Shown: positions 58,353 through 63,654 of the stretch, one piece after another | Position numbering within the stretch: position 1 is the first letter of the stretch | How the letters are laid out: every line of letters starts with the position of its first letter | Translations under genes and position numbers: made by a program | Assembly: GCA_016790635.1 (NCBI GenBank) | Contig: JAEUOR010000026.1 | Coordinates: 1-64,000 of the forward strand | Direction of reading: 5' to 3' | DNA: 64,000 nucleotides | Source of the DNA: Burkholderiales bacterium | GTDB lineage: Bacteria > Pseudomonadota > Gammaproteobacteria > Burkholderiales > JAEUOS01 | Notes under the pieces: generated by a model | What the model was told of the DNA's origin: nothing | Seen by the model: the letters and a program-made list of their open reading frames with translations, nothing else | Databases searched by the model: none

Positions 58353-58452
58353 CGCACGACAAGTCCCGTAGCCTGCCAACTCGCGGCACGCTTGCGTAAA
58401 CTCGCCGCTTCGCGCCGTCCGCGAACGGCCAATGATCCGCAGGGAATTCACC

Positions 58453-59391
58453 ATGAGCGACTTTCAGCCTTCGCAACGCTATCCCGACCCTTCCATCGTC
58501 ACCCTCGACGCGTCCTTCGACAAACTGCGCCTGGTACTGGTCAAGGTCGAGCGCATCGCGCACGGCACGCGCTGGGCCGAGGGGCCGGTGTGGTTCGGCG
58601 ACACGCGCACCCTGATCTGGAGCGACGTGCCCGGCAACACCATGTACCGCTGGGACGAGGAGTCCGGTGCCATGGGCGTTTTCCGCAAGCCCTCCAACAA
58701 CGGCAACGGCAACACGCGCGATCGCCAGGGACGCCTCATCACCTGTGAACACCTGGCGCGCCGCGTCACGCGCACCGAGTACGACGGCCGCATCACCGTG
58801 CTGGCCGACAGCTTCGAGGGCAAGCGCCTGAATTCGCCCAACGACGTGGTGGTCAAGTCCGACGGCTCGGTCTGGTTCACCGACCCGGTCTTCGGCATCA
58901 ACGGTTTCTACGAGGGCATGAAGGACACGCCCGCCCTGCCGACCCACGTCTACCGCATCGACCCCGACGGCTCCTTGTCGGTCGTCGCCGAGGGCATCAA
59001 CCAGCCCAACGGACTGGCCTTTTCGCCCGACGAATCGCTGCTCTACGTGGTCGAGTCGCGGTCGGTGCCGCGCAAGATCCTCAGTTTCGACGTCATCGGC
59101 GGGCGTACGCTCGCCAATCGCCGCGTGTTGATCGACGCCGGCCCCGGCACACCGGACGGATTTCGCTGCGACATCGAGGGCAACCTCTGGTGCGGCTGGG
59201 GCATGGGGCAGGCAGGGCTGGACGGCGTGCATGTGTTCAACCCGGACGGTCGCCTGATCGGACGCATCGACCTGCCAGAACGCTGCGCCAACCTCTGCTT
59301 CGGCGGGGTGCACCGCAACCGGCTTTTCATGGCGGCGAGCACTTCGCTGTATTCCCTCTTCGTCAACACGCAGGGCGCAGCATATTTCTAG
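58453..59391 (+). CDS. SMP-30/gluconolactonase family lactonase
   Basis: About 312 aa from ATG 58453 (MSDFQP); an in-frame start 21 bases earlier is weaker. Six-bladed beta-propeller of the SMP-30/gluconolactonase type: 'RWAEGPVWFGDTRTLIWSDVPGN' (Glu metal ligand), 'RLNSPNDVVVKSDGSVWFTDP' (Asn), 'INQPNGLAFSPDESLLYVVES' (Asn), 'TPDGFRCDIEGNLW' (Asp). It hydrolyses sugar or similar lactones with a divalent metal. No signal peptide, so it is cytoplasmic. The next gene is a PQQ dehydrogenase whose product could be a lactone, a likely functional link. Confidence 0.9.
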   Translation: MSDFQPSQRYPDPSIVTLDASFDKLRLVLVKVERIAHGTRWAEGPVWFGDTRTLIWSDVPGNTMYRWDEESGAMGVFRKPSNNGNGNTRDRQGRLITCEHLARRVTRTEYDGRITVLADSFEGKRLNSPNDVVVKSDGSVWFTDPVFGINGFYEGMKDTPALPTHVYRIDPDGSLSVVAEGINQPNGLAFSPDESLLYVVESRSVPRKILSFDVIGGRTLANRRVLIDAGPGTPDGFRCDIEGNLWCGWGMGQAGLDGVHVFNPDGRLIGRIDLPERCANLCFGGVHRNRLFMAASTSLYSLFVNTQGAAYF

Positions 59392-59517
59392 GCAGGACAG
59401 ACCAGGGCGGCCATCCCGCGTCATTTCGAAGGCGCGGGCGTAGAATCGACGCGCCGCCGTAGCGCCAAAACAAGAATCAGCGTGGCCGGCGGAATTTCAA
59501 CCCGCGGAGGAGACAAC

Positions 59518-60873
59518 GTGAAATTTTCTACCGGCGCCCTGACGGCGCTCGCGGCGCTCGGCCTTGTCGGCTGCGCCCAACAACCCACCCAGCCCAGTTC
59601 GCCGCCGCCGGCACCTCCGGTCGCGGCCAAGCCCGCGCCGGCCCCGGCGCCTGCTCCTGCGCCGCAGGTCGCTCAGCCCAAGCCTGCGCCCACCCCGGCG
59701 CCCGCGCCGGTCGCTGCGGCGCCTGCCAAACCGCCCGCGCCGCCGCCCGCCTGGCAGCAGGGCCGCCGTCCCGACCAGGCCAATTCGACCCTGGCGCCGC
59801 TGGCCGGCAAGATGACCGTCACCGCGCCCAACGAGATCCCGTTGGACCGCCTGAAGCTGCCGCCCGGATTCAAGGTCGAGTTGTGGGCGCACGGCATGCC
59901 CGGCGCGCGCATGATGGTGCGCGGCGACAAGGGCAAGATCTACGTCGGCACGCGCATCATCGGCCGGGTCTACGAGATCACCGACAACGGCCGCGAGCGC
60001 TCTTCGCGCGTGGTCGTCGACAAGCTGGTGCAGCCGGCCGGCGTGGCCTTCAGGAAGGGCTCCCTCTACGTCATGGCCATCGACAAGGCCCTGCGCTTCG
60101 ACGGCATCGAGGGCAAGCCCGACGTGCAGCCGGTCGACATGACGGCGGCCTTCCGCCTGCCGCCCGAACAGCACCACAACTGGAAGTACATCAAGTTCGG
60201 TCCCGACGGCAAGCTCTACGTGCCCTTCGGCGCGCCGTGCAACATCTGCGTTCCCGGCAACGAGTACGCGCAGATCCGCCGCTACAACGCCGACGGCAGC
60301 GGCATGGAAGTCATCGCCCGGGGCGTGCGCAACACGGTCGGCTTCGACTGGCATCCGCGCACGCGTGAACTGTGGTTCACCGACCACGGCCGCGACTGGA
60401 TGGGCGACGACAGCCCGGACGACGAACTCAATCGAGTCTCCAAGACCGGACTCAACTTCGGCTTTCCCTACTGTCACGCCAGCGGCGTGGCGGACCGCGA
60501 CCTGCCGAAGGCCAACCCCTGCGACGGCGTGACGCTGCCGGTGACCAACATGGGACCGCACGCGGCTGTCATGGGCATCAAGTTCTATACCGGCAAGATG
60601 TTCCCCAAGGAATACCGCGACGTGATGTTCATCGCGCGCAAGGGCTCGTGGAACCGCAGCACCAAGCTGGGCTTCGACGTCGTCACCGTGAAAGCGGACA
60701 AGAACGGCAAGAACCCCAAGGTCACGCCCTTCATGACCGGCTTCCTGGATGACCGCACGCAGCAGTTCTGGGGGCGTCCGGCCTACATCCTGCAGCAGTC
60801 CGACGGCTCGCTCCTGGTGTCGGACGAGCAGCTCGGCGCCATCTACCGCGTCTCGTATGCAGGCAAGAAGTAG
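59518..60873 (+). CDS. PQQ-dependent sugar/sorbosone dehydrogenase-like lipoprotein
   Basis: About 451 aa from a GTG at 59518, supported by GGAGGAG; a GTG at 59482 is in frame but would spoil the signal. The lipobox 'ALGLVGC' (Cys17) gives a lipid-anchored protein. A Pro/Ala/Lys-rich tether occupies residues about 20-85. The remainder is a beta-propeller of the glucose/sorbosone dehydrogenase family ('DRLKLPPGFKVELWAHGMPG', 'HHNWKYIKFGPDGKLYVPFG', 'RGVRNTVGFDWHPRTRELW', 'LNFGFPYCHASG', 'WGRPAYILQQSDGSLLVSDE'). It oxidises a periplasmic sugar or alcohol with PQQ and passes electrons to the cytochrome encoded next, whose start codon lies inside this gene. Confidence 0.9.
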   Translation: MKFSTGALTALAALGLVGCAQQPTQPSSPPPAPPVAAKPAPAPAPAPAPQVAQPKPAPTPAPAPVAAAPAKPPAPPPAWQQGRRPDQANSTLAPLAGKMTVTAPNEIPLDRLKLPPGFKVELWAHGMPGARMMVRGDKGKIYVGTRIIGRVYEITDNGRERSSRVVVDKLVQPAGVAFRKGSLYVMAIDKALRFDGIEGKPDVQPVDMTAAFRLPPEQHHNWKYIKFGPDGKLYVPFGAPCNICVPGNEYAQIRRYNADGSGMEVIARGVRNTVGFDWHPRTRELWFTDHGRDWMGDDSPDDELNRVSKTGLNFGFPYCHASGVADRDLPKANPCDGVTLPVTNMGPHAAVMGIKFYTGKMFPKEYRDVMFIARKGSWNRSTKLGFDVVTVKADKNGKNPKVTPFMTGFLDDRTQQFWGRPAYILQQSDGSLLVSDEQLGAIYRVSYAGKK

Positions 60874-61483
60874 GTTGGTCCGGCGCGCGGTCGACACCGC
60901 GCGCCGGAGCCTTGCCGCGCCCGCGCTTTTCGCGGGCGTCGTTTTTTGGGGCCTGCCGACCCTGCCTGCGCTGGCGCAGGTTCTGCCGGCCAAGGCGCAG
61001 GTGTGCGCGGCATGCCACGGTGCGGATGGCAATTCGGTCACGCCGGGCAGCCCCTCGCTGGCCGCGCAGCCGCGCCTGTTCCTCGAGAACACGCTGGTCA
61101 TGGTGCGCGAAGGCCTGCGCGACATCGCCGTCATGCGCGGCATGCTCAAGGGGTTCACGGACGCCGAGATCAGCGCGGTGGCGCGCTTTTATTCGTCCCA
61201 GACCTTGAAGCCGCAGCCGCCGGCGGCGGACGCGGCCCGCGTCGCGCGCGGCGCGACACTCTCCAAGGCCGCCCTGTGCGGCACCTGCCACCTGCCCGAC
61301 TATTCCGGGCGCGAGCAGATGCCGCGCCTGTCCGGGCAGCGCGAGGACTTCCTGTTTTCGTCGATGCGCGATTTTCGCGACGGCAGCGCCACCGGGCGCG
61401 ACACCATCATGGCCGCGACGCTCCGTGGCATGAGCGACGAGGAACTGCGCGATCTGGCGCATTATTTCGCGCAGAAGCCGTGA
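60857..61483 (+). CDS. Diheme cytochrome c (c4-like)
   Basis: About 208 aa from ATG 60857, which overlaps the dehydrogenase stop by 17 bases. Signal peptide with a hydrophobic core 'LAAPALFAGVVFWGLPTLPALA', then two haem-binding CxxCH motifs: Cys50-Cys53-His54 ('VCAACHG') and Cys141-Cys144-His145 ('LCGTCHL'). Two-domain diheme cytochromes of this type shuttle electrons in the periplasm to a terminal oxidase. It is the natural electron acceptor for the PQQ dehydrogenase encoded upstream. Two strong hairpins and a T6 tract lie inside its signal-peptide codons. Confidence 0.92.
   Translation: MQARSRLVRRAVDTARRSLAAPALFAGVVFWGLPTLPALAQVLPAKAQVCAACHGADGNSVTPGSPSLAAQPRLFLENTLVMVREGLRDIAVMRGMLKGFTDAEISAVARFYSSQTLKPQPPAADAARVARGATLSKAALCGTCHLPDYSGREQMPRLSGQREDFLFSSMRDFRDGSATGRDTIMAATLRGMSDEELRDLAHYFAQKP
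60879..60908. repeat. 13-bp stem-loop inside the 5' end of the cytochrome gene
   Basis: TCCGGCGCGCGGT (60879-60891) and its exact complement (60896-60908) are separated by a four-base loop. The hairpin begins 6 bases after the stop codon of the PQQ dehydrogenase gene and within codons 8-18 of the cytochrome gene. Together with the downstream hairpin it may tune expression between the two genes. Confidence 0.65.
60918..60947 (+). terminator. Intrinsic-terminator-like hairpin with T6 tract, inside the cytochrome signal-peptide codons
   Basis: CGCCCGCG (60918-60925) and its complement (60931-60938) form an 8-bp stem with a five-base loop, followed by TCG and six Ts (60942-60947). This has the form of a Rho-independent terminator, yet lies within codons 21-31 of the diheme cytochrome. 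It would stop transcription only when the cytochrome signal-peptide region is not being translated, i.e. it would act as a polarity/attenuation switch. Confidence 0.6.
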
Positions 61484-63654
61484 CGAGGAGCGCGCACCAG
61501 GTCGGATGCGTCGGTGCGCTTTGCGCGGCCGGCCTCATGACTTTCTGCGCCGTCGGCGACGCGCGTGCGCAGCCCGCGGCGCCGCAACCGGCGAGCGTCG
61601 TGGCCACGGATTCGGTGCCGTCCGTGGTCGTCACCCCGCTGCAAGTCGCGCAGCCGGCCTTTGACACACCGGCGTCGGTCGACGCGGTGGGCGCCGCGCA
61701 ACTGGGCGGCGGGCAGCGTCAGATCAACCTTTCCGAGACCTTGTCACGCGTGCCGGGGATCGTCGTGCAGGACCGGCAGAACCTTGCCCAGGACCTGCAG
61801 ATCTCCTCGCGCGGGTTCGGCGCACGCGCCACCTTCGGCGTGCGCGGCATTCGTCTCATGGCCGACGGCATCCCGGCCAGCATGCCGGATGGCCAGGGCC
61901 AGGTCTCGCATTTCAGCCTCTCCTCGGCCTCCCGGGTCGAAGTCCTGCGCGGGCCGTTCTCGGTGCTATACGGCAACGCGGCCGGCGGGGTGATCTCGAT
62001 CACCACCGCAGACCCGGTCGTCGGCCTGCGCGTCGGACCATCGTTCCTGGCTGGCAGCTTCAACACATGGCGCGCCGGGCTCGCGGCCTCGGGCGGCGAT
62101 GCCGCGCTCGGTTTCGTGGCTGACCTGGCGCGCTTTCGCACCGACGGCTATCGTGACCACAGCCGCGCGGACCGGGAATCGGCCAACTTCAAGCTGCGCG
62201 CCGTCGCGGGACCGGCGACGACGGTGACGGCGGTCCTCAATCACCTCTCGATGCCGGGCGTCGAGGATCCGCTCGGGCTCACGCGCGCCGAGATGCTGGC
62301 CAATCCGCGCCAGGCGACGCCAAACGCCTACCGCTTCAACACGCGCAAGGACACCGGGCAGACCCAGGCGGGCATGGTGGTGGACCATGCGCTCACGAGC
62401 GAGGATCGCCTGCGCCTGTCGCTGCACACCGGCGAGCGGCGCGTGCGCCAGTTCCTCGCCATCGAGCCGGGCCCGCAGGCCGCAGCGACGCACTCCGGTG
62501 GCGTCATCGACCTTGATCGCAACTACGGCGGGATCGACTTGCGCTGGATGCGCCAGGGCTATCTTGCCGATGGCGCCTTCACGCTCACGGCGGGGATGAA
62601 CTTCGATGCCATGGACGAGCGCCGCCGCGGCTTCCAGAATTTCGTCGGCGCGACCCTGGGGGTACAAGGTGCGCAGAAGCGCGACGAAGACAATCGCGTC
62701 AGCGTCTTCGACCGCTTCGTGCAGGGCGAATGGCAGTTCGCCGAGCGCTGGCGCGTCTCCGGCGGCGTGCGTCATTCGCGCGTGGCCTTCAATTCACGCG
62801 ACAACTTCATCGTCGGGGCGAACCGTGACGACAGCGGCAGCGTCGCCTACCGGGCGACGAGGCCGGCGGCCGGACTGGTCTTCCAGGCCAGCGAGAACCT
62901 CAACGTCTACGCCTCGGCCGGACGCGGCTTCGAAACGCCGACCTTCAACGAGCTGGCCTACCAGCGCGTCGGCGCCGGGCTCAACTTCGGCCTGCGCCCG
63001 GCGCAGAGTCGCCAGGTCGAGGCTGGCGCCAAGGCGCGTTTCGGCGGCGTGCTGGTCAATGCCGCGGTCTTCGCTGCACGTACTTCGGACGAGATCGCAG
63101 TCCTCGTCAACAGCGGCGGCCGCTCGGTGTTCCAGAACGTCGGCCGCACCGCGCGCGACGGCGTCGAACTGAGTCTCACCGCGCCGCTGGGCGCGGGCTT
63201 CACCCTCTACGGTGCCTATACGCAGGTCGAGGCGCGCTACCGCGACAGCTTCCTCAGTTGTGTGGCCGTGCCTTGTGCCGCGCCGACCGTGCCGATCGCC
63301 GCCGGCAACGCGATGCCGGGCATCCCGCGCGAGACGCTGTTCGTCGAACTCGCCTGGCGCGATGCGCGGCGCGGGCTTCTCGCGGCAATCGACGCGCGGC
63401 GCGTCGGCGCGGTGGTGGTCGACGACAGCAATTCCGATGCGGCAGCAGGCCACACCCTGGTCAATGCGCGCCTGCAATGGCAGCGCCCGGTCGGCGACTG
63501 GCTGCTGGGCGCTTTCGCGCGCATCGACAACCTGGGCGATGCCCGCTACGCAGGCTCGGTGATCGTCAACGAATCCAGCCGGCGCTTTTTCGAGCCCGCA
63601 CCGGGGCGCCACTGGGCGATCGGCGCCTCGGCCGCCTGGCGCTGGCGGCGATGA
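61480..63654 (+). CDS. pqqU: TonB-dependent outer-membrane receptor, PqqU/YncD-like
   Basis: About 724 aa from a GTG at 61480 that overlaps the cytochrome stop (GTGA); it gives a proper signal peptide ('CAAGLMTFCAVGDARA'). The plug domain reads 'INLSETLSRVPGIVVQDRQN', 'LAQDLQISSRGFGARATFGV', 'GIPASMPDGQGQVSHFSL', 'RGPFSVLYGNAAGGVISI'. The C-terminus reads 'YAGSVIVNESSRRFFEPAPG' and ends in an aromatic/basic beta signal. These segments match what I recall of E. coli YncD (PqqU), the pyrroloquinoline-quinone importer, along most of its length. With a PQQ dehydrogenase two genes upstream, PQQ uptake is a strong inference. Confidence 0.88.
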   Translation: MTRSAHQVGCVGALCAAGLMTFCAVGDARAQPAAPQPASVVATDSVPSVVVTPLQVAQPAFDTPASVDAVGAAQLGGGQRQINLSETLSRVPGIVVQDRQNLAQDLQISSRGFGARATFGVRGIRLMADGIPASMPDGQGQVSHFSLSSASRVEVLRGPFSVLYGNAAGGVISITTADPVVGLRVGPSFLAGSFNTWRAGLAASGGDAALGFVADLARFRTDGYRDHSRADRESANFKLRAVAGPATTVTAVLNHLSMPGVEDPLGLTRAEMLANPRQATPNAYRFNTRKDTGQTQAGMVVDHALTSEDRLRLSLHTGERRVRQFLAIEPGPQAAATHSGGVIDLDRNYGGIDLRWMRQGYLADGAFTLTAGMNFDAMDERRRGFQNFVGATLGVQGAQKRDEDNRVSVFDRFVQGEWQFAERWRVSGGVRHSRVAFNSRDNFIVGANRDDSGSVAYRATRPAAGLVFQASENLNVYASAGRGFETPTFNELAYQRVGAGLNFGLRPAQSRQVEAGAKARFGGVLVNAAVFAARTSDEIAVLVNSGGRSVFQNVGRTARDGVELSLTAPLGAGFTLYGAYTQVEARYRDSFLSCVAVPCAAPTVPIAAGNAMPGIPRETLFVELAWRDARRGLLAAIDARRVGAVVVDDSNSDAAAGHTLVNARLQWQRPVGDWLLGAFARIDNLGDARYAGSVIVNESSRRFFEPAPGRHWAIGASAAWRWRR

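Follow-up and report, generated by a model that had tools for sequence, protein, structure and literature searches.

PQQ scavenging through the TonB receptor PqqU, which is YncD in E. coli, has already been published, and a PqqU is recognised by a residue signature of Y99 (F or W accepted), R304 and R365 (Munder 2025). The PqqU survey of 2025 analysed synteny relative to the biosynthesis operon and tallied PQQ enzymes by the families PF01011, PF13360 and PF13570 together with the HMM of Diamond et al.; about one third of the PqqU carriers had no recognised PQQ enzyme, and about one quarter of the published PqqU genomes also encode PQQ synthesis. We found no report in this survey of PqqU clustering with dehydrogenases, or of GSDH. 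The xoxF3 clusters (PMC10875860) combine a quinoprotein gene with genes for a cytochrome c and for a TonB receptor, with YncE in the figure, and this figure therefore provides a partial precedent for clustering.

Here we analyse a locus of an uncultured Burkholderiales bacterium in which three plus-strand genes, encoding a dehydrogenase, a diheme cytochrome c and a TonB receptor, occupy positions 59518-63654 of the window (the whole stretch of DNA analysed, 64,000 nucleotides), each gene overlapping the next. Our preferred explanation, which we hold at a probability of roughly 80%, is that the three genes constitute one transcription-translation unit that acquires and uses PQQ.

Gene organization of the locus

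The genes of the locus are as follows, with the basis of each assignment in brackets.

58432..59391, plus strand: SMP-30/gluconolactonase-like protein, upstream neighbour, outside the unit (Pfam SGL)
59518..60873, plus strand: GSDH-type (PF07995; AA12/sGDH-like) dehydrogenase, predicted to be PQQ-dependent and a lipoprotein, with a Pro/Ala linker (Pfam, profile and fold search)
60857..61483, plus strand: c4-like diheme cytochrome c with a signal peptide (Pfam Cytochrom_C, PDB matches to c4)
61480..63654, plus strand: PqqU-type TonB-dependent receptor, predicted for PQQ (PDB match, NCBIfam, residue signature, tree)

The cytochrome ATG at 60857 precedes the dehydrogenase stop codon (60871-60873), which gives the overlap of 17 bases described in the earlier note, and the GTG start of the receptor at 61480 lies inside the overlap with the cytochrome stop codon, in the GTGA coupling described there. 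The dehydrogenase, cytochrome and PqqU genes are thus confirmed as a coupled unit, as the first reading of the sequence had observed. An origin by chance is unlikely, since two further genera of the family show the same arrangement. Directly 3' of PqqU, from 63753 onward (L098:7754-8968), lies a gene whose product joins a response regulator receiver domain to a Ser/Thr protein kinase.

The earlier note also placed an SMP-30 lactonase before the three genes. It is a real gene located upstream of them, starting at 58432 or 58453, ending at 59391 and matching Pfam SGL with 200 bits; its membership in the unit did not hold. We place the lactonase outside the unit, and rejected it as a fourth component, because a gap of 126 bases separates its end from the GTG at 59518, no signal peptide is evident on inspection of its N-terminus, and the lactonase was found at none of the other loci searched.

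Assignment of the receptor to PqqU

The closest PDB structures to the receptor are those of E. coli YncD/PqqU, matched with E 8e-162 across residues 40-722; the family that ranks second has an E value of 2e-12. The likeness, previously noticed in the plug and C-terminal segments, spans the whole protein, and the identity to E. coli PqqU is 41% over nearly the full length. The NCBIfam PqqU model NF041535 is the top of 23 models for the receptor, with a score of 658 bits that lies below its equivalog cut-off of 1200 bits, a value that seems tuned to close relatives; the receptor is therefore classed as PqqU on the strength of the published residue signature and not of the NCBI equivalog definition. 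In the alignment, Y99, R304 and R365 of E. coli correspond to F119, R320 and R382 of the receptor, the complete signature, and Phe occupies the Y99 position in all 80 of the nearest PqqU homologues. By this signature, the receptor is a predicted PqqU.

The alignment to PqqU and its PQQ-binding residues, proposed earlier as a check, showed the contacts kept. The contacts identical to those of E. coli are Q84, Q121, K274, Q308, N477, Y481 and R536 (sites from PMC12124388), and 10 of the 11 contacts are kept or conservatively replaced, the exception being Q310, which is Leu in the receptor. The Q310A variant of E. coli PqqU behaves as the wild type (PMC12124388). Among the sequences compared, the PqqU of a contig titled as a Klebsiella pneumoniae MAG (L008) groups with betaproteobacterial sequences, and this bin may be mislabelled or mixed.

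The dehydrogenase and its predicted PQQ site

The open reading frame of the dehydrogenase extends over 59482-60873, and on inspection the likelier start is the GTG at 59518, which has a strong ribosome-binding sequence, GGAGGAG. The N-terminus carries a lipobox (LVGC) followed by a long Pro/Ala-rich linker. The match to Pfam GSDH (PF07995) is partial, with 54 bits; a profile built from 27 homologues retrieves AA12, Asd and sGDH in the PDB. An AlphaFold2 model made from 4 sequences (pLDDT 66.5, pTM 0.75) gave Z scores of 27-33 to AA12, sGDH and Asd in a fold search, with the SMP-30 class next at Z 25, and the first 16 fold matches are all members of the fold class of PQQ sugar dehydrogenases (sGDH/Asd/AA12). 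The modelled fold is thus a six-bladed propeller like those of the solved PQQ sugar dehydrogenases.

The reference for the PQQ/Ca site was TrAA12, whose residues are listed in PMC6881810. The predicted site codons in the window are the following.

59908..60654, plus strand: predicted PQQ/Ca-site codons, by alignment to TrAA12 R57, H153, R220, D221, N239, D242, H330, H350 and D354
59908: R
60175: H, predicted catalytic base
60328 and 60331: R-N pair
60385: H
60394: D, predicted Ca ligand
60559: H
60640: K
60652: N

TrAA12 R57, H153, R220, D221, D242, H330 and D354 correspond to R, H, R, N, D, H and N, respectively, in 26-27 of the 27 sequences. The catalytic His (aligned to H153), the Arg-Asn/Asp pair (R220 and D221, Arg-Asn here), the Ca-ligand Asp (D242) and the second His are kept in all 27 homologues, and the first Arg in 26; the window enzyme departs from TrAA12 at H350, which is Lys, and at N239, which is His. 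By this conservation, the dehydrogenase retains most of the AA12/sGDH PQQ-calcium site and should use PQQ.

PQQ synthesis genes and other PQQ users in the genome

The source genome is a draft with a completeness of 89.8% and a contamination of 5.6%. A model search of it gave no match for pqqB; a pqqC-like match was rejected as a synthesis gene since it is a CADD-like protein, and a pqqE-like match since it is MoaA. None of the five family genomes (84-97% complete) has pqqC, and the identical search detected it above the cut-off in 15 of 60 genomes. The earlier note saw no pqqABCDE genes; this now extends to the source draft genome for pqqB, pqqC and pqqE. Neither a full pqq operon elsewhere nor a loss of the PQQ residues of the receptor, the combination that the same note named as counting against its reading, was found. 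The source bacterium thus appears, from its gene content, to lack PQQ synthesis, and a lineage without the synthesis genes must obtain the cofactor from outside.

The window dehydrogenase was rejected as the sole quinoprotein of the genome, since PF07995 also finds a full-length orthologue of YliI/Asd on contig 59 (38767-39747; L150), with 49% identity to E. coli YliI. Orthologues of YliI/Asd are present in all five family genomes. This protein is likely a second PQQ user, so that the window dehydrogenase may not be the only enzyme supplied by the importer. A PF13360 search of the source genome found no eight-bladed PQQ dehydrogenase; its strong match is BamB and its weak match (351 aa) fits no NCBIfam model, and both were rejected as extra PQQ enzymes. 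In the relative G004, which is without pqqC, an eight-bladed PQQ alcohol dehydrogenase-like protein (L147:1450-3405) matches TIGR03075 with 405 bits, below the cut-off.

Conservation of the arrangement and co-occurrence with PqqU

PqqU is present in all five family genomes, and their PqqU proteins constitute one clade. The order dehydrogenase-cytochrome-PqqU is found in three genera of the family, represented by the source genome, G001 and G004, with local identities to the latter two of 45-46% for the dehydrogenase, 36-39% for the cytochrome and 56-57% for PqqU. In two genomes of the source genus, PqqU does not lie beside the dehydrogenase; in one of this genus, G002, the dehydrogenase and cytochrome are paired and PqqU is on another contig. 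In G003 a cytochrome gene adjoins PqqU, and no dehydrogenase of the window type was found in this 84%-complete genome. The unit of G001 directly adjoins the sulfur-oxidation genes soxA and soxZ (L094:10326-11441).

Outside the family, GSDH and cytochrome genes lie beside PqqU in Polaromonas sp. AET17H-212, an Alcaligenaceae bacterium, Pollutimonas bauzanensis and G052, and on the PqqU tree the GSDH-PqqU link requires at least three label changes; it recurs in at least two places of the tree besides the family. PqqU and GSDH co-occur among the 60 genomes (15/19 versus 7/41; Fisher p 6e-6), also when families f1 and f2 are each cut to one genome (p 6e-5). In five relatives a GSDH homologue is present while PqqU and pqqC are both absent, so some GSDH homologues may not use PQQ, or may take it by diffusion. 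Both pqqC and PqqU are present in 10 of the 60 genomes. Importer and synthesis genes are neighbours in G019 C5, G032 C4, G042 C2 and G051 C5, with pqqC about 2-7 kb from PqqU.

A pattern of which we found no report in the survey concerns the 80 nearest PqqU loci: at 26 of them, a gene for a quinoprotein dehydrogenase (eight-bladed at 23, GSDH-type at 3) lies no more than 8 kb away. Even if every genome of 4.5 Mb is assumed to hold five genes of this kind, the expected number would be below 2, the loci not being independent of one another.

A terminator-like hairpin in the cytochrome gene

The two CxxCH haem motifs of the cytochrome are encoded at 61004-61018 and 61277-61291, and its best PDB matches are cytochrome c4. 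Its gene contains one further feature.

60914..60947, plus strand: terminator-like hairpin and T-run, in the codons of the cytochrome signal peptide (also present in G001 and G004)

A GC-rich hairpin with a T-run is found 69-75 bases 3' of the dehydrogenase stop codon in the window, G001 and G004, which represent three genera (L093, L094); the background of such sites in this DNA is about 0.009 per 200 bases. The presence of this hairpin in the signal-peptide codons of the three genomes with the complete gene order is a new observation. In G034 the hairpin lies 40 bases 3' of the dehydrogenase stop codon, in G049 a possible cytochrome start codon falls within it, and in L057 it is 5' of the cytochrome start. 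Random synonymous versions of the sequence contain such a hairpin in 6% of draws for the window, 1.5% for G004, 17% for G001 and 0.035% for G034, a result that is suggestive only, because these four were picked after the hairpin had been seen.

The hairpin is a possible control element of the unit: placed at the start of the cytochrome gene, it may hold the expression of the cytochrome and importer below that of the enzyme, and if it is real, ribosomes on the coupled cytochrome gene would permit read-through. A terminator-like hairpin inside the unit also counts against the single-unit explanation, as do the sub-threshold PqqU score, the partial GSDH match and the shallow fold model, the Lys and His substitutions in the predicted cofactor site, the draft state of the genome, the relatives whose GSDH homologues occur without PqqU and pqqC, and the separation of PqqU from the dehydrogenase in two genomes of the genus.

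Discussion

If the single-unit explanation is correct, PqqU would import PQQ across the outer membrane, as its orthology and kept contacts suggest, and periplasmic PQQ and calcium would charge the membrane-tethered GSDH/AA12-type dehydrogenase at the conserved site. The enzyme would oxidise a sugar-like substrate and pass electrons to the c4-like diheme cytochrome, which would hand them to a terminal oxidase. An enzyme that should require PQQ, an importer with kept residues and the apparent lack of synthesis together imply that the bacterium probably takes the PQQ for this dehydrogenase from its surroundings; that neighbouring cells are the source is what we infer. The earlier proposal that uptake and use are encoded together in a cell that does not make PQQ is supported by the kept contacts and the absence of pqqB, pqqC and pqqE.

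It is unlikely, although worth weighing, that the GSDH-fold protein no longer uses PQQ, that PqqU serves only the YliI/Asd orthologue, and that the adjacency is simply inherited. The weak and partial PF07995 match would fit such a loss, as would the full-length YliI-type enzyme with its orthologues throughout the family and the five relatives whose GSDH homologues lack both PqqU and pqqC; against it, the PQQ/Ca-site residues count among those that do not vary across the 27 homologues, and different GSDH subfamilies are linked to PqqU in separate lineages.

The receptor could instead import another ligand, such as the substrate of the dehydrogenase or a metal complex, since ligand switching is possible in TonB receptors and this one is only 41% identical to E. 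coli PqqU, with Leu at Q310. We consider this very improbable, given that the receptor retains the signature and the charged contacts, among them K274 and R536, which are less conserved, and that Q310A has no effect in E. coli (PMC12124388). Slightly less probable still is that the cell makes PQQ from genes lying in assembly gaps and that the receptor only recovers lost cofactor. The incomplete draft leaves room for such gaps, and synthesis accompanies PqqU in about one quarter of the published genomes and, judged by pqqC, in 10 of our 60; yet pqqC is missing from all five family genomes in a search that detected it in 15 of 60, and pqqB and pqqE are missing from the source genome too.

In the single-unit explanation, a PQQ importer is tied to one particular enzyme with its electron acceptor, and gene context alone can thus indicate the use of scavenged PQQ. 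GSDH (PF07995), being outside the families named in the survey, is one candidate answer for the enzyme-less third of PqqU carriers, and the clustering pattern yields a testable prediction. A broader proposal, which we put forward tentatively and with considerable doubt, is that the importer clusters with its client enzymes as an unreported general rule of Beta- and Gammaproteobacteria, that GSDH with its own cytochrome is an overlooked client class explaining part of that third, and that in one lineage the output of the importer is set by a terminator in the cytochrome signal-peptide codons.

Comparison with known systems

The operon of GSDH, c4-like cytochrome and PqqU is new, and its enzyme belongs to a class that is not among the Pfam families of the PqqU survey; operon and enzyme class are a variant of the published principle of scavenging through PqqU. 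The receptor shares the signature and nearly all PQQ contacts with E. coli PqqU, whose gene adjoins the divergent yncE, far from gcd and yliI, whereas the window pqqU shares an operon with dehydrogenase and cytochrome genes. The dehydrogenase has the predicted six-bladed propeller and PQQ/Ca-site residues of sGDH (Acinetobacter), Asd/YliI and AA12 (TrAA12, CcPDH), with about 18-24% identity to the solved members, and differs from them in its lipobox, its Pro/Ala linker and its c4-like cytochrome partner. Like cytochrome c4, the window cytochrome has two class I haem domains; unlike it, its gene is located between GSDH and PqqU and carries a terminator-like hairpin in the signal-peptide codons. 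The xoxF3 enzyme is an eight-bladed lanthanide methanol dehydrogenase, unlike the window GSDH, and its cluster, like the window, includes genes for a TonB receptor and a cytochrome c.
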